Of a DNA stretch of 48,713 nt, positions 3,626 through 14,600 are shown one piece after another; the stretch's first letter is position 1; every line of letters starts with the position of its first letter. A model generated the notes under the pieces. It searched no databases and had not been told where the DNA came from. It worked only from the letters and a program-made list of their open reading frames with translations. The position numbers and the translations under genes are program-made. Source of the stretch: Bacteroidales bacterium (lineage in GTDB: Bacteria; Bacteroidota; Bacteroidia; Bacteroidales; VadinHA17); contig JAAYUS010000237.1 of assembly GCA_012517605.1 (NCBI GenBank), forward strand, positions 1 to 48,713. Reading direction: 5' to 3'.

Positions 3626-4933
3626 ATGAACTCTACGCGAAGAAACTTTATAAAGACAGCATCCGTACTTGCAGCAGGAACACTACTGCCGGCTGATTTA
3701 ATATCAGGAACAGGTAAGGCAGTTCCGCCCAGCGACAGAATAAATATCGGCCTGATAGGCGTAAGAAGCCAGGGATTCAGCGACCTGTCATCATTTCTTA
3801 AGAACAAGGAGGTTCAATGTGTGGCAATGAGCGATATTGACAGCAACCTTCTTGAAAGCAGGACAGCTGATATCGTGAAGCTTGGCTATGAGAAACCAAA
3901 ACTTTATGGCGATTACAGAAAAATGCTTGAGAACAAGGATATCGATGTTGTTATTATTGGGACACCCGATCACTGGCATTGTCTTCAGTTTGTTGACTCG
4001 CTCGAAGCCGGAAAGCATATTTATGTTGAAAAACCTATCGGTAACTCTATCGCCGAGATAAACATAATGAACAATGCTGCCAGGAAGCATGGCAAAATCG
4101 TTCAGGTGGGCCAGTGGCAAAGAAGTCAGCCTCATTTTGTAGATGCAATTAATTATCTTAAATCCGGAAAGCTCGGGCGCATCCGTACCTGCAAGGCATG
4201 GTCGTATGTTGACTGGAAAGGCGCTGTTCCGAAAGTTCCGGATGCACCAGTTCCGGCAGGAGTAAATTATGACATGTGGCTCGGTCCGGCTCCCAAAAGG
4301 CCATTCAACATGAACAGGTTCCATTTTACATGGAGATGGTACTGGGAATATGGTAACGGTCTGATGACAGACTGGGGCGTTCATCTTATAGACTACATCC
4401 TTTACGGAATGGGAAAATCAATACCTGCTTCGGTGATGGCAATCGGCGGCAAATATGCTTTCCCCGATGATGACATGGTGACTCCCGACACAATGACGGC
4501 TGTTTATGATTTCAATGATTTTACAATGATATGGGAACATACAATCGGCATCGGACTCGGGAACTGGAAAAGACCCCACGGCATGTCGTATATTGGGGAG
4601 AACGGAACTCTTGTCCTCGACCGCAACGGATGGGAAGTATTCCCAGAAAAACAAAAGATCGAGGCGGTTCCCGTTCAGAAGAATGTAGGTAACGGGCAGG
4701 ACCTCCATGCAAGAAATTTCCTGGATTGTCTCGAAAACAATACACCTGATAAGCTGAATGCAGGGATTGAGGTCGGAAGAAGAGTGGCTCTCGTTGCACA
4801 GATGGGTAATGTTGCCTATCGCACCGGTGAAAAGGTATCCTGGGATGATGCAAAACAGCAATTCAAGACCGAAACTGCCAATAAGCTCATAACCCCTGTC
4901 TATAATAACGGATATAAATTACCAGGTTATTGA
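3626..4933 (+). CDS. Gfo/Idh/MocA family oxidoreductase with Tat-like signal
   Basis: N-terminal 'STRRNFIKTASVLAAGTLLPA' (twin Arg), NAD-binding GLIGVRSQG, 'EKPIGNS' motif. Confidence 0.93.
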   Translation: MNSTRRNFIKTASVLAAGTLLPADLISGTGKAVPPSDRINIGLIGVRSQGFSDLSSFLKNKEVQCVAMSDIDSNLLESRTADIVKLGYEKPKLYGDYRKMLENKDIDVVIIGTPDHWHCLQFVDSLEAGKHIYVEKPIGNSIAEINIMNNAARKHGKIVQVGQWQRSQPHFVDAINYLKSGKLGRIRTCKAWSYVDWKGAVPKVPDAPVPAGVNYDMWLGPAPKRPFNMNRFHFTWRWYWEYGNGLMTDWGVHLIDYILYGMGKSIPASVMAIGGKYAFPDDDMVTPDTMTAVYDFNDFTMIWEHTIGIGLGNWKRPHGMSYIGENGTLVLDRNGWEVFPEKQKIEAVPVQKNVGNGQDLHARNFLDCLENNTPDKLNAGIEVGRRVALVAQMGNVAYRTGEKVSWDDAKQQFKTETANKLITPVYNNGYKLPGY

Positions 4934-5013
4934 GTTGTGAGTAGCGAGTAGTGAGTTTGACCAGAACCCAGCACCCGGCACGGGGAATACTTGTAACTTT
5001 TTTTGCGCTTTGG

Positions 5014-6480
5014 TTATTCTCCAACAATTTTTATCAGTTTTCCTGCAGGAACCTGATCGGTCAGCTCGAGGTCGTTGAGCAGAGATAATTCCTTGTACAT
5101 CGAATTGGGAACCCTGTAATATGCAAAGGCATCCGAAAGAGTGCTGTTCCTCTGTACCCTGACAACCTGAACCTTCTTTGGCCTGACATTAATCTTCGAG
5201 GCATCAGTAAGCTGTGCAAATGAGACCATTGAAGAGTTGAACGTATTTGCAAAATTGTTGAAATCGGCTTCTGTTGTAACTCCGTGGAATACATATATCA
5301 GTTTATTGTAGCTGATAAAATATGATAGAATCATATTTGTCTGTGTGGCGCCTGTCGACTGGTCCTGGACAACCTGTTTGCTTTGGGTGAGTATAGCAGG
5401 AAGGCCGTTAACAGTGGTCCTTTTGCTTCCCTGAAGTTCGAGGCCGTATTGTTTTATTGTACTGTCGGCTGCCGATTCAAGCGTTTTTTGCTGTGCAAGT
5501 GTAAAAAGCATCAGCGCCCTTTGATCCTGTGGTGTTATTGTAACCTGTAATGGTGAATTTTCAAGCTTCCAGCCTGCAGGAAATGCAAATCTGAATTTAA
5601 GGTCGGGATGATAAAAAGTATTTCCTTCCACATACCCCTGACGTGGATCTTCGCCGTAAACTATTCCGTTAATAAGCTGGAGATAACTGTCCTGGTTGAC
5701 CTTGAACTCAGAAAGGGCAAGAGTTTTCTGCCACTCTGTGGCCTGTTGGTTTACTGCGTTGTACCTGTCACCCGGATCAGGATGGGTCGATAAGAATGTA
5801 GGAATGCCTCCCTGGCTTTCAGAAAGTGTCATTTTCTGGAGGACCTTGAAAAAATCAGCCATTTTATGAGCATCGTAGCCCATTTTCGATGAATATTCAA
5901 CACCGAGCCTGTCGGCCTCACGTTCATCATCACGGCTGAAGCTGAGGAAAAGAAGCTGCATCCCCTGAAGTGCATACTGGGCATATTGTGCAAACTTTTC
6001 CGAAGCAATCATCCCGCCTATAAGCAACAACTGGGCCAGTTGCTGCTTTGATTGCTGGCTTACCGTATGACGGGCTGCAATATGTCCCATTTCGTGAGCC
6101 AGCACCCCCATCAGCTCAGCTTCATTGTTAAGCTGGGCAAGAATGCCACGCGTAAGATATATATAGCCTCCCGGTACAGCAAAGGCATTGACAACCGGAG
6201 AATCCACCACCCTGACATAATATGTCAGATTAGGGCGGTGCGAAATTTTACCCATCTCCGTTCCGCGGGTCTGAACGAAATTTTGAATATTCTGGTCAGG
6301 ATAAACTCCGAAGGTCATCAGAACCTGGGGATCATAGGAACGTCCGAGCTCAACTTCCTGGGCTTCTGACATGAGCATTATCTGCTTCTTCCCCGTGACC
6401 GGATTGACAGCGCATGAGATAACAAGCAGAAGGGTTGCCGTAAAAATGACAACCACCAGCGGGATATTCAGCCTTTTCAT
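5014..6480 (-). CDS. M48 family metalloprotease lipoprotein with LysM-like C-terminal tail
   Basis: Lipobox 'LLVISCAVNP', HEMGH in 'GVLAHEMGHIAARHT', 'DDEREADRLGVEY'. Confidence 0.93.
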   Translation of the reverse strand: MKRLNIPLVVVIFTATLLLVISCAVNPVTGKKQIMLMSEAQEVELGRSYDPQVLMTFGVYPDQNIQNFVQTRGTEMGKISHRPNLTYYVRVVDSPVVNAFAVPGGYIYLTRGILAQLNNEAELMGVLAHEMGHIAARHTVSQQSKQQLAQLLLIGGMIASEKFAQYAQYALQGMQLLFLSFSRDDEREADRLGVEYSSKMGYDAHKMADFFKVLQKMTLSESQGGIPTFLSTHPDPGDRYNAVNQQATEWQKTLALSEFKVNQDSYLQLINGIVYGEDPRQGYVEGNTFYHPDLKFRFAFPAGWKLENSPLQVTITPQDQRALMLFTLAQQKTLESAADSTIKQYGLELQGSKRTTVNGLPAILTQSKQVVQDQSTGATQTNMILSYFISYNKLIYVFHGVTTEADFNNFANTFNSSMVSFAQLTDASKINVRPKKVQVVRVQRNSTLSDAFAYYRVPNSMYKELSLLNDLELTDQVPAGKLIKIVGE

Positions 6481-6596: not shown

Positions 6597-7694
6597 TTAT
6601 TGATTTTCCCTGCTTACTGCCACAGCGATCTTTGAATCGGCTGTTCCGTAATACAAAAACCAACGTTCTTTAAAACGGACCAATCCCTCAACAAAACATA
6701 CGTTGTTCACCTCTCCCGTTATTTCATATGGCTTTTCAGGCCTGATGAACAGAGTATCCATTCTGCTTCTGAGTTTATAGGGGTATTCCCTGTCGAACAG
6801 CGCCTGGCCTCCTGAATAGGTAAATCGTGGCAAGGATGGATCGTTGCAGTTTGCAGCATTGCTGCTGTTATATACAAGTAAAATGCCTTCATTGCGCACC
6901 AGGGCGTAAGGGCCCGGTTCCACAAGCCGGCTGTCAAAGTAACCCGGTCGTGGATGAAGAACTGATATCATCTTGCCGCTTTCTATATTTTCTACTGCGT
7001 TCCAGTGAATAAGATCATCAGAATTTGCCATGAAAAGATCGGTGTCGCCAAAATACATCCAGTATTTTCCTCTAATCCTTTCAGCAATGATCCTGTTGCC
7101 TTCAAGCCTGGAAACAATAGCTCCTGATTTTGACCAGAGATCCCTGTATTTTTCAGAATTCAGAACCAGACCCTTTTTCGACCATACCCTGAGATCTTTT
7201 GATGTGGCAAGGCATAACCTTGCCGTTTTGCCGTCGTAAGAGGTATAAGTCAGAATAAATGTGCCATCGTCGCTCTCAACTATCCTGGGATCCTCCACCC
7301 CGCCTTTCCATTCATAAACCTTCATACTGTCATTGTCAGGATAAAAGACAGGCTCCGGTTCCTTCGTGAAATGCAGGCCGTCGTCGCTGACTGCAAGTCC
7401 AAGCCGCGATGTCATCTCATTGTCCTGAGCCCTGTAGATCATCCACACCTTCCCGTCTTTTACCACAGCAGTGGGATTAAGAACATTTCTCTCCTCCCAC
7501 CTGACTTTTTTCCCTGACACAGGGCATGTAAAAAGCTGGTCAGCCGATGGTGACAATATGGGATTTATGCTGTCGGCTTTTTCAAACCCTGTAAAAGCCC
7601 ATTTATAAAAGGTTCCCGCGGGAGTAACTGATTCGGGAGCCCCTGAACAGCCCGATAAAACCAATGCCAGGAGTGTAATGACTTTGTATTTCAT
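6597..7694 (-). CDS. GH130-like five-bladed propeller glycosidase/phosphorylase, lipoprotein
   Basis: Lipobox 'LALVLSGCSG'; 'VLNPTAVVKDGKVWMIYRAQD', 'GGVEDPRIVE', 'NVCFVEGLVRFKERWFLYYGTADSKIAVA'. Confidence 0.8.
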   Translation of the reverse strand: MKYKVITLLALVLSGCSGAPESVTPAGTFYKWAFTGFEKADSINPILSPSADQLFTCPVSGKKVRWEERNVLNPTAVVKDGKVWMIYRAQDNEMTSRLGLAVSDDGLHFTKEPEPVFYPDNDSMKVYEWKGGVEDPRIVESDDGTFILTYTSYDGKTARLCLATSKDLRVWSKKGLVLNSEKYRDLWSKSGAIVSRLEGNRIIAERIRGKYWMYFGDTDLFMANSDDLIHWNAVENIESGKMISVLHPRPGYFDSRLVEPGPYALVRNEGILLVYNSSNAANCNDPSLPRFTYSGGQALFDREYPYKLRSRMDTLFIRPEKPYEITGEVNNVCFVEGLVRFKERWFLYYGTADSKIAVAVSRENQ

Positions 7695-7769
7695 GACAAT
7701 ATAAAATATGCAGGATAATCAAAATGATGTCACTGCAAATTTACACTCCTTTAAGGAATTACAGGTTAT

Positions 7770-8591
7770 TTATCGTGATGAATTCAGCCGCGGGATAAAA
7801 GTATAACCTATCATCACAATAGTTTGTTTGCCGGCTCTTACTCCAACATCAAAGCTTCCGTTTCCGACATACCAGCTTATACCTGCAAGAGCATACGGAG
7901 ATACTGAAGAGGTTTCCGTATCCTCCACTGAATAAGTGGAATATGATATCTCACCACCGATATTTGGGCTTATCCTGAGTTTCTGAATCGGGAAATAGAA
8001 TTTGCTTGATATGCCGACGTTCGATTGAAAGGTCTGACTATCATAATCAATATTGCCAAATATGAACCCTGAAGCAGATGCTGCAAGATCCCATCTGTTC
8101 TTCAACAGGAAAAACCCAAACCTTGTGCTGAATCCCATGTTTATATTATGCTGGGAATCAAACTGTGACTGAAAACCAAAATAAACAAACCACGGATGCT
8201 GTGCAGTTTTTGATTCCGGGATACGGGCAGCCTCTGCTCCTTTATCACCGTCAATCCTCCAGCTTTCAATCAGCATAGCTTTCCCTGTCGTGGCATTAAT
8301 ACCCCAGAGTTCGCGCGACGAACCGTTTTCGACGACAATCAGTGATTGCTGCCACGATCTGACAAGCATGTCCATTACAGTGCTTTTATTCTCCCTTGCA
8401 AGCGAACTGTAACCCGGTGTTGCAGTTAGTTCAAGCTGGCCGTTGACCGCGAGGCGGGCATCTGTGAAATAAATTTTGAACTGGGGCAATACTGAGGATC
8501 TGAACATTTCTATCCCGGTGGTTTTTTCCTGGGCAATAACACCCGAAAATGTTGCAGATATAAAGAATAATATTAAAAGTATCTTTTTCAT
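7770..8591 (-). CDS. Predicted outer-membrane barrel-like secreted protein (operon gene 5)
   Basis: Signal peptide MKKILLILFFISATFSGVIAQ; alternating beta pattern in the C-terminal half; RNSSR end. Confidence 0.75.
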   Translation of the reverse strand: MKKILLILFFISATFSGVIAQEKTTGIEMFRSSVLPQFKIYFTDARLAVNGQLELTATPGYSSLARENKSTVMDMLVRSWQQSLIVVENGSSRELWGINATTGKAMLIESWRIDGDKGAEAARIPESKTAQHPWFVYFGFQSQFDSQHNINMGFSTRFGFFLLKNRWDLAASASGFIFGNIDYDSQTFQSNVGISSKFYFPIQKLRISPNIGGEISYSTYSVEDTETSSVSPYALAGISWYVGNGSFDVGVRAGKQTIVMIGYTFIPRLNSSR

Positions 8592-8596
8592 GTTCC

Positions 8597-9856
8597 TTAT
8601 TTTCTTTTACCGAAATACATGCTTCTTCCTGCTGAAAATCCCACTGTCGTGATCTGAGCCCGTGAGAAAGGCGCCATCCCGTCCCAGAAGATATCCCAGC
8701 TCGACACCTTGTTTTTGCTCTGGAAACTGAAACCGACCGAGATCTTAAAAAAAGCAGCCGAAGTGTTCCCTGTGAAGCTTCCCACAAGTCCGAAACCGCC
8801 AACAAGGACCTTATGCCTCTGATAATATGTCATCCCGACATTATAAGACGTGGTACCCGACATTGAAGAAATGCCAAGGTCGACAGCTGCATTGCCTGAA
8901 CCTGACAGAAAATATCCGAATCGCCCGTTTACATTTGTGTATGAGGGGGATATCATGCCGCCGGCGTATGCCATGAGACGCAGAGCATCCTTTTTGACCG
9001 ATGAACCTGCTATTACCTTTGCGATAGTCACTTTGGCAGGTTGTGATGATTTGGCGCTCAGCGACGAAAGCCTCTTTTCAAGAATTCCCCTTTCTTCATT
9101 TTTAGCAGGGTCTTTCCCCATCAGCTTTATTCCCTTTTCAAGTACCTCAGCGGCCGGTTTGTATAATTCTGCTTTTTCAAGTGCTATACTGTATCCCACA
9201 TAAGGCAGATATACATCCGGAAACGAAGCGTTAATATTGCTGAACAGACAGATGGCCAGCAGATAATTACCCCGGGATGTCAGTTTGTTTGCCCGGCTGA
9301 AGTATTCCGGCGCCTCGTCTGCACTTATCACATACTGTGGTTTTTGTGATTTGTATTTTTCAAGCATCACCGGTGCAACCTCTGAAATCCATGCCGGATC
9401 TTTCCTTCCCGGAAATACCTCATTCAAAGCTTCAGCCACCGCTTCATTGCCCATCAGCGAAAATATCTGCGAGGCATAAAATGACACCTCGGGATATAAA
9501 TACCTTGCCTTCCAGATTACGTCGATTCTGTACAAAGCCGCTTCAAAATTCCCGTTAACAGCAAGCGCGTATGCGTACTCGCTGCTCAGGCCGACATTGG
9601 TCGAATCAGCAGCAACCAGAGGGCTGTAAGCCATCAGAGCCTCAATTGTTTTTCCGCTCAGAAGCAGGCTTCTTGCCTCTTCGATTCCCGGCTGCGATGA
9701 TGTTTCTGATCTACCTTTCGAAGCGCTGCGGGACCTGTCTTTTTTTGACTGGCAGAATCCATTCCCGGTACTTATTGTAATCAGAAGCAAAAATACCAGA
9801 AATCCCCTGAGGGCTCCGCCACGTTTCTCAAAATGCTTATTTATATAATTGAGCAT
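8597..9856 (-). CDS. Secreted TPR-like protein with C-terminal barrel-like region (operon gene 4)
   Basis: Start chosen at MLNYINKHFEKRGG (9856) to avoid overlapping the upstream gene; signal segment FLVFLLLITISTGNGFCQ; helical repeats then beta-rich C-terminus 'YNVGMTYYQRHKVLVGGFGLVG...SAGRSMYFGKRK'. Confidence 0.75.
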   Translation of the reverse strand: MLNYINKHFEKRGGALRGFLVFLLLITISTGNGFCQSKKDRSRSASKGRSETSSQPGIEEARSLLLSGKTIEALMAYSPLVAADSTNVGLSSEYAYALAVNGNFEAALYRIDVIWKARYLYPEVSFYASQIFSLMGNEAVAEALNEVFPGRKDPAWISEVAPVMLEKYKSQKPQYVISADEAPEYFSRANKLTSRGNYLLAICLFSNINASFPDVYLPYVGYSIALEKAELYKPAAEVLEKGIKLMGKDPAKNEERGILEKRLSSLSAKSSQPAKVTIAKVIAGSSVKKDALRLMAYAGGMISPSYTNVNGRFGYFLSGSGNAAVDLGISSMSGTTSYNVGMTYYQRHKVLVGGFGLVGSFTGNTSAAFFKISVGFSFQSKNKVSSWDIFWDGMAPFSRAQITTVGFSAGRSMYFGKRK

Positions 9857-9863
9857 ATGAAAG

Positions 9864-11108
9864 TTATAAAATTGAATTCGTTTTAAAAGCATAATTAATA
9901 TTTTCGATAATATCAGCAAACCGCTGGTCGAGAATCTTCTGGATATCAGAATTTTCCTGCTTGTAAAAACCGGCTAATTCCCTGCTGTCGGCTTCAATAC
10001 TGTCAATCAGGCTCTTTTTCTCCTTTTCAACAGCCGAGATCTGTTTTTTCAAAGTGGCAATCTCATTCTTGTTCTTCTTTTGATCAGTTTGATATTCAGC
10101 AAGTTTCTGCTTAAGAGGCGCCATCTTGCCATCAATTTCACCTGCTTTTGTCACTGCTGCTTTGACTTTCTCATTCCATTGGGATATAACCTTTTCAGCT
10201 TCCCGGATCTTGTTCTTATGCCAGGCCGGAATTTCAAGAGCCGGCGTGAAAAAAGGATTTATATTCTCACTGATATTCAATGCCGTCTGTTTTACGGGAG
10301 TTCCCTTCACAAATCCTGAAGGTTCGGGATCAAACGACTTGATGTCCTGACTTACGTCGCTGTATTTATTGCCTGCTGTTTTTATGCTCTCTTTGCTAAT
10401 CTTTTCAAGTTCAGAAGCGGATTTTTCGCCTGCCTTTACAATCTCGGCCCTTGCATTTTCAAGAGCTTTTCGTTGTTCATTAAGTTTCTTCATTATTGCA
10501 AGAATATTTCCCGAATAAGATTTTGAATCTGCATTTTTAAGTTCCATAAGTTCCTTTTCCGTCGCTCTGATTTCTTCTTCAAGCTTCTTTGCCGAAGCAG
10601 TGAGATCATTTATATGCCTGCTCCATTCATCAACGGAAGCCATGAATTTTTCAATTTCCTTTTCATGGAAAGAAATCAAATCCGCAACAGGCGTTACATA
10701 GCCAAAGGCTTCGTTGTCCGCGAAACTGATGTTTGCAGGGGCCGGCTGGGCAATGACTTTTGGTCTGGCTTCAGCGACAGCGGCAGCCGGGTCTCCTGCT
10801 TTTGCAGATGTCAGTGTTTCCCCGGTATCCGGCCGGGAAGGGACTGCAGTTCCTTTCGTACCTGACGATTTTTTCATTGCCTCAATGACAGGCTTCGAAA
10901 CGTTCTGCCTTATCAGGTCATCTACTGATCCGGGGGAGAGATCAAAATTAACTGCCGAACTCCCTATCACATCAATTATCAGCTCATCTGATAATCTGGC
11001 ATTTACCATTTTGAGAATCGCGCTGTTGGTCAGAGTGTCAGAGCTCTGGGCGCCTGCCTTGTTAATAAGAAACAGACATGGGATTATAAATAATAATAAC
11101 CTTTTCAT
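9864..11108 (-). CDS. Secreted coiled-coil protein with N-terminal repeated ~56-aa domain (operon gene 3)
   Basis: Signal peptide MKRLLLFIIPCLFLINKAGAQ; domain LTNSAILKMVNARLSDELIIDVIGSSAVNFDL...VIEAMKK; long heptad-like K/E-rich segments. Confidence 0.8.
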   Translation of the reverse strand: MKRLLLFIIPCLFLINKAGAQSSDTLTNSAILKMVNARLSDELIIDVIGSSAVNFDLSPGSVDDLIRQNVSKPVIEAMKKSSGTKGTAVPSRPDTGETLTSAKAGDPAAAVAEARPKVIAQPAPANISFADNEAFGYVTPVADLISFHEKEIEKFMASVDEWSRHINDLTASAKKLEEEIRATEKELMELKNADSKSYSGNILAIMKKLNEQRKALENARAEIVKAGEKSASELEKISKESIKTAGNKYSDVSQDIKSFDPEPSGFVKGTPVKQTALNISENINPFFTPALEIPAWHKNKIREAEKVISQWNEKVKAAVTKAGEIDGKMAPLKQKLAEYQTDQKKNKNEIATLKKQISAVEKEKKSLIDSIEADSRELAGFYKQENSDIQKILDQRFADIIENINYAFKTNSIL

Positions 11109-11131
11109 ATTTCACCTTGTTAAATCGGATT

Positions 11132-12214
11132 TTACTGCACTTTTTCTGCTTGCTTTTTCATGGCTTCCTTCATTGCCATTATGACATTCGAGGAAACATT
11201 CCTGTTTGAAAGCTCAATCATCGAATCAACTCCGAGATCAAAACTGACTTTCGACCGGTTGATTATGCTTATTATTATCCCATCCGGAAGCTTGTCCCTG
11301 ACAAAGCCGATTACAGATTCATTTGTCAGAATCCCGTCCGGAGCAGTTTTGTCAGCCGCAACAGCAGGGGCCTGGGAAACTGATGAAATCTTCTTTTCGA
11401 GACCTGTAATCCTTACAAGCAGTTTCCTTTCCGGATTAAAAACTATTAATCCATTGTAAAACATCAGCTTGCCACCTAATTGATCAGTAATTACCGTTTG
11501 TTCCTTATCCCTGAATGAAAAAATCATATTGTCAGTTGAAAAGTAAATCCTGCCGGTTTCGGGATCGGCTGTCAAAGATCTTATTGTTTTATCTTCAGGT
11601 AACGATGCGACGGCTTTCATTTCCTTTTTCCCCGGGACGTATTCAAAAATTGTGTTCCTGTTAGTAAAAAGGATTCTGTCATTTATTTCGACAAGGGAAT
11701 ACACCGGATCAGGCACGCTGAACAAACGTGAATACATGCCTCCGCGCGATAGAACGTAAATACCCTTTTCAGGCTTTGATACTGTCCTGTCGAAAATATA
11801 CATTACATTTTTCCCCCTGGAGATGCCCATTTCCTGCGATGGAAGCGTATAAAGTCGCGTAAGATTGCCATTTCTGTCAAAAACACATAATTCATCATTT
11901 CTGATTGTCATCAGAAGACTGTCGGAAGTATAGGCGAATGAACCTATATTACCGGTTACTTTTCCGGCAAAAGGGACAATCCCTCCCCAGCCGAGAAGAT
12001 AAAATTGTTCCCTGTTTGAAAGCAATATCAGCCTGTTTGCTGTTATATCAATAGAATTAATGAACCTGTTTGCCGGATTTATCTCATCCGCCATTGAGGG
12101 AGTTAGCAGCACCTCGTACTGAAGAGAATCGCCCTCAGGGCGATTGCCATAAACTGATGTCATTGAGGTTGCAGCCAGCAGTACAATAAATAATATCCTT
12201 CCTGTTTTGAGCAT
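11132..12214 (-). CDS. Secreted beta-propeller-like protein with C-terminal repeated ~56-aa domain (operon gene 2)
   Basis: Signal peptide; repeated beta-blade pattern; C-terminal LTNESVIGFVRDKLPDGIIISIINRSKVSFDL...VIMAMKEAMKK. Confidence 0.8.
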   Translation of the reverse strand: MLKTGRILFIVLLAATSMTSVYGNRPEGDSLQYEVLLTPSMADEINPANRFINSIDITANRLILLSNREQFYLLGWGGIVPFAGKVTGNIGSFAYTSDSLLMTIRNDELCVFDRNGNLTRLYTLPSQEMGISRGKNVMYIFDRTVSKPEKGIYVLSRGGMYSRLFSVPDPVYSLVEINDRILFTNRNTIFEYVPGKKEMKAVASLPEDKTIRSLTADPETGRIYFSTDNMIFSFRDKEQTVITDQLGGKLMFYNGLIVFNPERKLLVRITGLEKKISSVSQAPAVAADKTAPDGILTNESVIGFVRDKLPDGIIISIINRSKVSFDLGVDSMIELSNRNVSSNVIMAMKEAMKKQAEKVQ

Positions 12215-12238
12215 ATCTATTATTTGTAGGTTTACTTA

Positions 12239-13369
12239 TTAATTTGATCCGGTTGCTTTTTTCCATGCCTGAACAGCAGCATCAGCGCTTCCGGATACCA
12301 GTTCAAAATCCTTTTTGGCAGCCTCACCGGAAAGAACACCAGTATTAACATTCATTTTGCCGATGGAGAATCCTCCCTTACCAATGACGTTTCCGGCAAC
12401 ATCTCCGATTTTCTTGGTAAGAAGGTCTCCGGCCACATCAACAAGTATTTCCTGTCCGCTCTTTTTATTGATGATGCCCGAGACCACATCAACGCCGGCG
12501 ACCGCCACATATCCGCCCGAAACAAATCCTGCCGTGAACTTGAGGGCATCGGTTCCGAGTTCAAGCATTTCGGGTGTTGTCCAGAAAGGACTTTCCTCAA
12601 GCCTGAAATTTGATTCATCAAGACGATTATCAGGTATTGACTTCAGATTATAGGCGTTTATTCTTTCCCTTTCTTCAGCAGTAAGCGGAGAACTGCCCAT
12701 TATGGGGACAACCATCTGAGGCTCCTCCTTTTTTTCAACTGCTTCGTTTCCCTGTTTCTGAAGGAGATCCACAACACTTGGTCCGCCTGAAAGATCAACT
12801 ACCCCGCCCTGTTCAGGTTTTTCAAATCTGATTGACTGGTCAGCGTAATATTTGTCAAAATCATCCTGTCCGGTGGAAGGTATATCACGATTAACAGGAG
12901 GACTCGAATAAACATCCATTCCCATTGACTTCATTTTCTGAATGTAATCGTCAATCCAGTTCTCAATTGCCTTGCTCTGGTGGGGCGTAAAAAAGGCTGA
13001 GCCCTGAGCAAGACCATCTATTGAAACACTGCCGGGTTGCGATGTATTATCGCCAGGTATTGTCATATCTGAACCCGAGCATGGAGTGCAGGTATAGAAA
13101 ACCGAACAGTCTCCTATATACTCACCTCTGTCATTGTAAACAGGAGTGCTCGCTCGTATGGCAAGGATCTGCTGCCTCAGCGATTCACAAAAGCTCTGCG
13201 TCGGCATATACGGCACCGTAAATGAAGGAATATACGGTAAACTTGAACCGCACGGGCCCGATGATGTCACTGTAAAAGTGAATATCCACCCCTGAGCCAG
13301 AATATCCGATCGGTTGAAGGCCAGAGGTATAACAAGAAGCATAAGAAATCTTAATGTTCGTCGAAACAT
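12239..13369 (-). CDS. Secreted protein with Cys-containing N-terminal region and hydrophobic Gly/Val-rich C-terminal segment (operon gene 1)
   Basis: Start chosen at MFRRTLRFLMLLVIPLAF (13369); Cys in SSGPCGSS, SFCESL, GDCSVFYTCTPCSGSD; 'FTAGFVSGGYVAVAGVDVVSGIINKKSG'. Confidence 0.72.
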   Translation of the reverse strand: MFRRTLRFLMLLVIPLAFNRSDILAQGWIFTFTVTSSGPCGSSLPYIPSFTVPYMPTQSFCESLRQQILAIRASTPVYNDRGEYIGDCSVFYTCTPCSGSDMTIPGDNTSQPGSVSIDGLAQGSAFFTPHQSKAIENWIDDYIQKMKSMGMDVYSSPPVNRDIPSTGQDDFDKYYADQSIRFEKPEQGGVVDLSGGPSVVDLLQKQGNEAVEKKEEPQMVVPIMGSSPLTAEERERINAYNLKSIPDNRLDESNFRLEESPFWTTPEMLELGTDALKFTAGFVSGGYVAVAGVDVVSGIINKKSGQEILVDVAGDLLTKKIGDVAGNVIGKGGFSIGKMNVNTGVLSGEAAKKDFELVSGSADAAVQAWKKATGSN

Positions 13370-13799
13370 GTTTTTAAATTGTAATATTGTAAGGATTAAA
13401 GTATTTGCAGGAACGACATTCTGTATTGCAGTAAGCATGACTGCAGACTTCGTAGAAAAATCACCTTCAGGTCATAAGTTTTAATAAGGTTAGATCAGAT
13501 GTAAAAAAAGCGTTTCCCAAATTTGCTCCGTTGGTGCTGTTGCAGTCCAGAAGATAATGATTTACTTTGTTTTTAATTCGCCATTGTTGCTCCGGTATCA
13601 TTATCCTCTTTTACGGCGACAGGCATAACAGTCGAAAAACGTAAGCATGCATGCCAATATTTTGTATCAGACATAATTTAACTGTCAAGGCCTTCACTAT
13701 TGTCAATAAAAACTGACATAAACACTTCTGCATGATTTTTGTTTGATAAGAAAGGGGACTGGATTAACTTAGCCCCGCCAATTAAGAAAACTTCACGAT

Positions 13800-14600
13800 A
13801 TGAAAAAAATACTATTGACGGTTTCATTGCTTGCCATCGGTGTGCTTATTTATCCGCAAGGATCCTCAGGGCCTTTGATGCCTGTTACAACAGGCTCGGT
13901 AAAAGCACGGGAATACTTTAATGAAGCACTGAAATATTTTGATGATGTCAACCTTAAAAAAGGCCATGACATGCTTGTAAAAGCACTAAAAGAAGACCGT
14001 GATTTTTTCATGGCAAATTACCAGATGGCAATGTATTGCATCTGGACCGAAGATCTTCAGGGTTTTGATGAGTATTCACAAGCCGCTGCCGGCACCAGTG
14101 CAAAGCTGAGTCAGGCTGAGGAAATACTCAGGGGAGCTATATCCAGGTTGAGTGATTATCCCGGGGCTGATGTCACCGATGCAGGTAAAAAGCTGGTTGA
14201 AATGTATCCAAATGATATAAATGCTTATAACAACCTTATATATTTCCAGTCTATAATAAACGACCAGAAAGGCCAGCTCGAAACTGTTGAAAAAGCTCTG
14301 AAGATAGCTAAGAATGCTGCTCCGCTTTATAATACAATGGGTTATATTTATCTTGCCCTGAAGCAATATGATAAGGCTGAATCGGCATTTGACAAATATA
14401 TTGAAGCTGATCCCCGTAATCCGAATGTTTACGATTCAAAGGGTGATTTCTATATGTTAAAAAGAGAATACAAAAAAGCTTATGAATTCTATATCAAAGC
14501 CTGCTCTATGGATCCCGAATGGGACAATGACAAAGCCCTCAGGGCCAAGGCTCTTTACGAACAGACTGAAGGCAAAAGGATTGATATAATCACAATGTGA
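13800..14600 (+). CDS. Secreted tetratricopeptide repeat protein
   Basis: Signal peptide MKKILLTVSLLAIGVLIYPQG; TPR units 'APLYNTMGYIYLALKQYDKAESAFDKYIEADPRNPNVYDSKGDFYMLKREYKKAYEFYIKA'. Confidence 0.88.
   Translation: MKKILLTVSLLAIGVLIYPQGSSGPLMPVTTGSVKAREYFNEALKYFDDVNLKKGHDMLVKALKEDRDFFMANYQMAMYCIWTEDLQGFDEYSQAAAGTSAKLSQAEEILRGAISRLSDYPGADVTDAGKKLVEMYPNDINAYNNLIYFQSIINDQKGQLETVEKALKIAKNAAPLYNTMGYIYLALKQYDKAESAFDKYIEADPRNPNVYDSKGDFYMLKREYKKAYEFYIKACSMDPEWDNDKALRAKALYEQTEGKRIDIITM

Follow-up and report, generated by a model that had tools for sequence, protein, structure and literature searches.

A candidate outer-membrane client-handling gene set in Bacteroidales, with relatives beside Rhs proteins in Elusimicrobiota

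The window, i.e., the whole stretch of 48,713 nucleotides of Bacteroidales DNA analysed here, contains a compact set of genes for exported proteins, G1 to G5. We consider it somewhat probable that this set represents, in Bacteroidales, a client-handling module of the outer membrane that is so far undescribed, in which the barrel proteins G4 and G5 dock or display clients that share a Cys-rich N-terminal module, the N-module. These clients are best seen as mostly Rhs polymorphic toxins in Elusimicrobiota, and as the shorter G1 protein together with a propeller in Bacteroidales. The route by which Rhs proteins reach the Gram-negative cell surface outside the T6SS is poorly understood, and a small outer-membrane pair found together with Rhs toxins and a common client N-module is a testable candidate, which also suggests a role for protein families hitherto without annotation. 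In the open-access literature, no description of an association between barrel pair, Rhs and N-module was found.

The gene set and its conservation in Bacteroidales

The set consists of five minus-strand ORFs, the calls of which were confirmed: G1 (12239-13369, 376 aa), G2 (11132-12214, 360 aa), G3 (9864-11108, 414 aa), G4 (8597-9856, 419 aa) and G5 (7770-8591, 273 aa). The gaps G1/G2, G2/G3, G3/G4 and G4/G5 are 24, 23, 7 and 5 bp, in agreement with an initial annotation in which five consecutive genes were spaced by about 5-25 bp. As also stated there, all five proteins begin with a signal peptide, seen here by eye as a charged-hydrophobic signal-peptide-like segment, and no standard family is recognised; no Pfam or NCBIfam model matches any of G1 to G5 at its curated cut-off. 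The divergent intergenic border, previously put at about 430 bp, is the 430-bp region 13370-13799 between G1 and a divergent TPR gene at 13800; it is the presumed promoter region of the G1-G5 set, and it contains neither an Rfam family nor a perfect TANNTTTG motif.

Downstream of the set lies the co-oriented GH130 gene of the initial annotation (6597-7694; Pfam PF04041, E 2e-49), which is kin of the BT3780 beta-1,2-mannosidase family (NF058598, E 4e-114, below cut-off). A TANNTTTG motif at 7736-7743, 42 bp ahead of the GH130 start, suggests that this gene may have its own promoter, with the frequency of the motif in the window being no higher than chance. The GH130 gene is not conserved beside the other loci described below.

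The domain labels given earlier to the five products (Cys-containing, propeller-like, coiled coil, TPR plus barrel, barrel-like) were right. G1, the candidate client, has a Cys-rich N-module behind its signal peptide and a divergent C-terminus. G2 is an exported propeller-like protein that resembles the designed propeller Pizza6 (E 1.4e-6), and at its C-terminus it carries a domain of about 60 residues that recurs at the N-terminus of G3, ahead of the coiled coil (41% identity, match E 1.6e-6; copies at 11153-11341 in G2 and 10863-11042 in G3). The genome has no third copy of this domain, Pfam gives no match to it, and the other Bacteroidales G2 proteins lack it. Its presence on both G2 and G3 suggests that G3 probably joins the complex through it. 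When the set was searched as a defence system, PADLOC gave only coiled-coil cross-matches on G3, and this candidate was rejected.

The order G1-G2-G4-G5 is colinear in 8/8 Bacteroidales loci found, that is, in the window and in seven other genomes (L007/G256, L013/G581, L015, L016, L083/G926, L091/G1003 and L092/G1027), which argues for a grouping beyond chance. The first clear relative of G4 came from one genome among 247 Bacteroidales genomes, in a locus with G1-G2-G4-G5 in order and without G3. In a leave-one-out check, G2 is found in all eight loci. The most divergent G1 proteins, those of L091 and L092, match the N-module profile with E values of 7e-9 and 1e-11, respectively, and receive no support from the full-length G1 profile. 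The five-gene unit of the initial annotation thus holds for four genes, while G3 is a local addition specific to the window, without a relative in 59 related genomes. That annotation also took the set for an undescribed dedicated envelope assembly, and this proposal stands: the genes are also found together in other genomes, and no described complex corresponds to them.

Many of the source genomes are fragmented metagenome assemblies. The set occurs in 1/58 genomes of the window's genus and in 5/394 genomes of the order, and from this patchy distribution it appears to have been acquired or frequently lost, though the GC and GC3 contents of the five genes are unremarkable. An origin in phages was rejected, with no PHROG match for G1, G2, G4 or G5 and with viral contigs yielding no relative of either G2 or G4, as was an origin in plasmids, with no relatives of G1 among the plasmids searched.

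Directly after G5, four of the loci have genes for DUF5106/thioredoxin-like CxxC proteins (L015, 12281-13156; L016, 11886-12764; L083, 6132-7967; L091, 10044-10919), and L083 has a MauE gene there as well. Such CxxC proteins would fit a disulfide-bonded Cys module. At its N-terminus, the G5 protein of L015 (11079-12284) is fused to a lipoprotein-like PEGA domain (PF08308), which is not seen in the other G5 proteins.

The predicted barrel pair

An AF2 model of G4 (seven sequences) predicts a TPR solenoid at residues 55-272, with pLDDT mostly above 85, followed by eight barrel strands at residues 293-415, with a mean pLDDT of 78.6 for the model. The Pfam model TPR_19 matches G4 with E 6e-4, below its cut-off. 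With the G4 model as query, Foldseek returns TPR proteins and the 8-strand barrels OprF (TMt 0.71) and OmpA (TMt 0.65). G5 has a small N-terminal domain with a conserved [RG]ELW motif and then a barrel for which hhalign supports homology to that of G4 (Prob 97, E 9.7e-11). Both proteins are predicted to lie in the outer membrane, each with a small barrel homologous to that of the other.

Barrels of the OmpA type with eight strands are normally closed, without a wide pore. To label G4-G5 a secretion channel would accordingly go past the evidence, and from the predicted fold it is unlikely that G4 and G5 alone form a channel. This bears on the reading that the set performs true secretion or delivery, where G4/G5, perhaps in a larger assembly, would carry toxins with the N-module through the outer membrane to kill in a contact-dependent way, with G1 as a small antibacterial effector. 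The eight predicted strands of the G4 barrel argue against this reading; other evidence on it comes from the clients.

Clients and the N-module

When genomes were scanned with the G4 alignment, two loci in Elusimicrobia also came up, and whole-genome searches gave further ones. In nine Elusimicrobiota loci (L020, L032, L033, L034, L064, L065, L066, L067 and L103), G4-G5 is immediately followed by a gene for an exported Rhs protein, and wherever both ends of the G5/Rhs junction are readable the genes overlap by 4 bases. The Rhs identity of these relatives is firm (PF05593, E 2e-82; Rhs_assc_core, TIGR03696, E 2e-15). Weak G4 matches in many Elusimicrobiota (E 1e-3 to 1e-6), mostly partial and in the TPR region, were not counted.

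The N-module of G1, with cysteines C40, C61, C88, C94 and C97 and a motif 'G.aFFtP......W.ddY' at about 119-145, is homologous to the N-termini of the Elusimicrobiota Rhs proteins. HMM matches have E values of 1.7e-6 and 1.8e-6, and hhalign aligns the two with Prob 95-96 and E 3e-8 to 3e-9 over a significant stretch of only about 57-66 columns, in register at the motif 'G.aFf.P......W.dd'; the best 10 of 30 column-shuffled controls reach a Prob of at most 0.5. When 200 Elusimicrobiota genomes were searched, the N-module was found in seven; six of these had G4 matches, and in the seventh, G1109, the N-module gene comes directly after G4-G5. The initial annotation missed four things: the limits of the four-gene core, with G3 as a local addition, the domain common to G2 and G3, the homology of the barrels, and this link to Rhs proteins with a G1-like N-module. 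It is the link to Rhs proteins that places the set in a concrete class of function.

The L103 locus speaks for the delivery reading. Here the Rhs core is followed, in this order, by a tip, a first small gene for an exported protein, an orphan cassette with an Rhs tip, and another such small gene; over about 1 kb the DNA of the orphan cassette is 91% identical to the core, and it then runs into another tip. The order core-tip, small gene, orphan cassette is how polymorphic toxin/immunity loci are normally arranged (PMC3482391), and the small exported genes of L103 are candidate exported immunity genes. The two tips, which differ from each other, may be toxin domains not yet described, and behind each lies one of these small genes. 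In these tips (4749-5177 and 6896-7555), motifs like those of L,D-transpeptidases are seen by eye (HGG...FGCTR; VHRG...SSGC), and Pfam gives no match. The gene before G4 in L068 (3526-5789) encodes an N-module client without Rhs repeats; its frame is broken by one in-frame TAG, and its pieces were searched separately. The C-terminus of this client has the sequence DCSCLI, NlpC/P60-like by eye and without Pfam support, and an exported gene follows it. Enzyme classes for the L103 tips and the L068 C-terminus were rejected as assignments, and the motifs remain leads.

In Bacteroidales, G1 ends in a divergent part with a glycine-rich hydrophobic stretch (residues 282-300), and hydrophobic Gly-rich stretches are present in the G1 proteins of both the window and L091. 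A hydrophobic C-terminus makes a membrane-active effector possible, and the patchy distribution of the set also speaks for delivery. So does the mean identity of the C-terminal part of G1, 19.6% compared with 25.3% for the N part, with the reservation that the difference is small. Against it, Pfam and NCBIfam scans give no toxin family match in any G1, and no Rhs repeats or recognisable toxin tip in the Bacteroidales G1 proteins. No obvious immunity gene adjoins Bacteroidales G1, and what follows it is always the propeller G2 and never an immunity gene that varies between loci. For G1, the AF2 model is too poor to be used (pLDDT 34.9). On its sequence, a toxin role of G1 is unproven, and we regard the delivery reading as rather unlikely.

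One may also consider a non-toxic structural or adhesive surface complex, where G1 and G2, in this genome with G3, would make an assembly that is adhesin-like or binds glycans and has G4/G5 as its anchor, and where the Rhs clients of Elusimicrobiota would use the same anchor. All gene products are exported, G2 is propeller-like, G3 is a coiled coil and a GH130 gene is the neighbour, all of which agree with such a complex. The GH130 gene is, however, not conserved at the other loci, there are no matches to carbohydrate-binding or adhesin families, and in Elusimicrobiota the barrel pair is strictly paired with toxin-like Rhs clients, so that we judge this complex improbable.

The docking and display module, which we prefer, rests on the gene sets, the homologies and the predicted G4 fold; from these we infer the binding, the export and display at the surface, and the toxicity of G1 if there is any. 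Counting against this module are the closed barrels, the Bacteroidales G1 proteins without Rhs repeats, toxin tip or neighbouring immunity gene, the short stretch of significant N-module homology, the poor G1 model and the fragmented state of many source genomes. It could work in the following way. Sec would export G1, and its Cys-rich N-module would fold in the periplasm, probably acquiring its disulfides through the CxxC thioredoxin-like proteins that are encoded beside several relatives. At the outer membrane, the N-module would then be bound by G4, through its TPR domain, and by G5, and there the client would be tethered, assembled or passed to the surface. The Bacteroidales client would lack the Rhs shell and have the propeller G2 as an extra exported subunit. 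In this genome, the domain of about 60 residues added to G2 and repeated on G3 would probably recruit G3 to the complex. A stronger proposal, put forward tentatively and in our view doubtful, is a new export/display system in at least two phyla, where G4 and its paralogue G5 would recognise the Cys-rich N-module and would deliver polymorphic effectors, which have an Rhs shell in Elusimicrobiota and, in Bacteroidales, no shell but a propeller subunit; the system would work without parts of T5b, T6SS, T9SS or T11SS.

Comparison with known systems

Closest in concept are Slam/T11SS, two-partner secretion as in CDI, and TANFOR, and when the set was compared with their defining features it departed from each of them. 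The type XI system (Slam, DUF560) resembles the set in having an outer-membrane protein with N-terminal TPR and barrel, encoded beside an exported client (PMC8406197). The TPR domain of G4 is likewise N-terminal, with a predicted periplasmic location, and there is a weak TPR_Slam match (E 0.23). The G4 model has, however, an OmpA/OprF-like barrel of eight strands, compared with the 14 strands of Slam; no Pfam match to DUF560 (PF04575-type) is found, two paralogous barrel proteins are present, and the link to the client is an N-terminal Cys module and not a C-terminal 8-strand barrel domain (PMC8406197). As for T9SS, there is a weak PorZ match (E 0.0034; 15.9 bits, compared with a cut-off of 260 bits), but G1 has no C-terminal sorting domain (TIGR04183/TIGR04131) and no NCBIfam match at E<=1, and the barrel pair is also present in Elusimicrobiota, while the described range of T9SS is Bacteroidetes only (PMC7073777). 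That the genes are accessories of T11SS or T9SS, or that G1 is a T9SS client, was rejected; we hold a gene set of either type to be highly improbable.

CdiA/CdiB two-partner secretion (T5b) similarly combines a large exported toxin and its own outer-membrane partner in one operon. It was rejected because G1, G4 and G5 give no Pfam match to POTRA, TpsB or the TPS domain. The TANFOR toxins of Bacteroidetes are exported like the present clients, and like them they join a conserved module at the N-terminus to C-termini that vary (PMC7073777). They were also rejected: NCBIfam scans find no TANFOR domain (TIGR02542) in the G1 proteins, the N-module is another one, there are no T9SS-substrate neighbours, and the module is present in Elusimicrobiota.

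The clients of Elusimicrobiota share repeats, core, divergent tips, orphan cassette and small exported neighbours with the Rhs/YD-repeat polymorphic toxins (PMC3482391). They differ from these in that the scanned proteins carry no PAAR/T6SS part (in L066 and L032, Pfam gives only RHS families and one sub-threshold unrelated match, and neither PAAR nor VgrG), and in that its place is taken by an outer-membrane partner of two barrels, private to these clients; in Bacteroidales, moreover, G1 differs in being without Rhs repeats. The 8-strand barrels of the OmpA/OprF type, finally, share their fold with the C-terminal half of G4, to which G4 adds a TPR domain on the N-terminal side, a tandem paralogue in G5 and the linkage to N-module clients.
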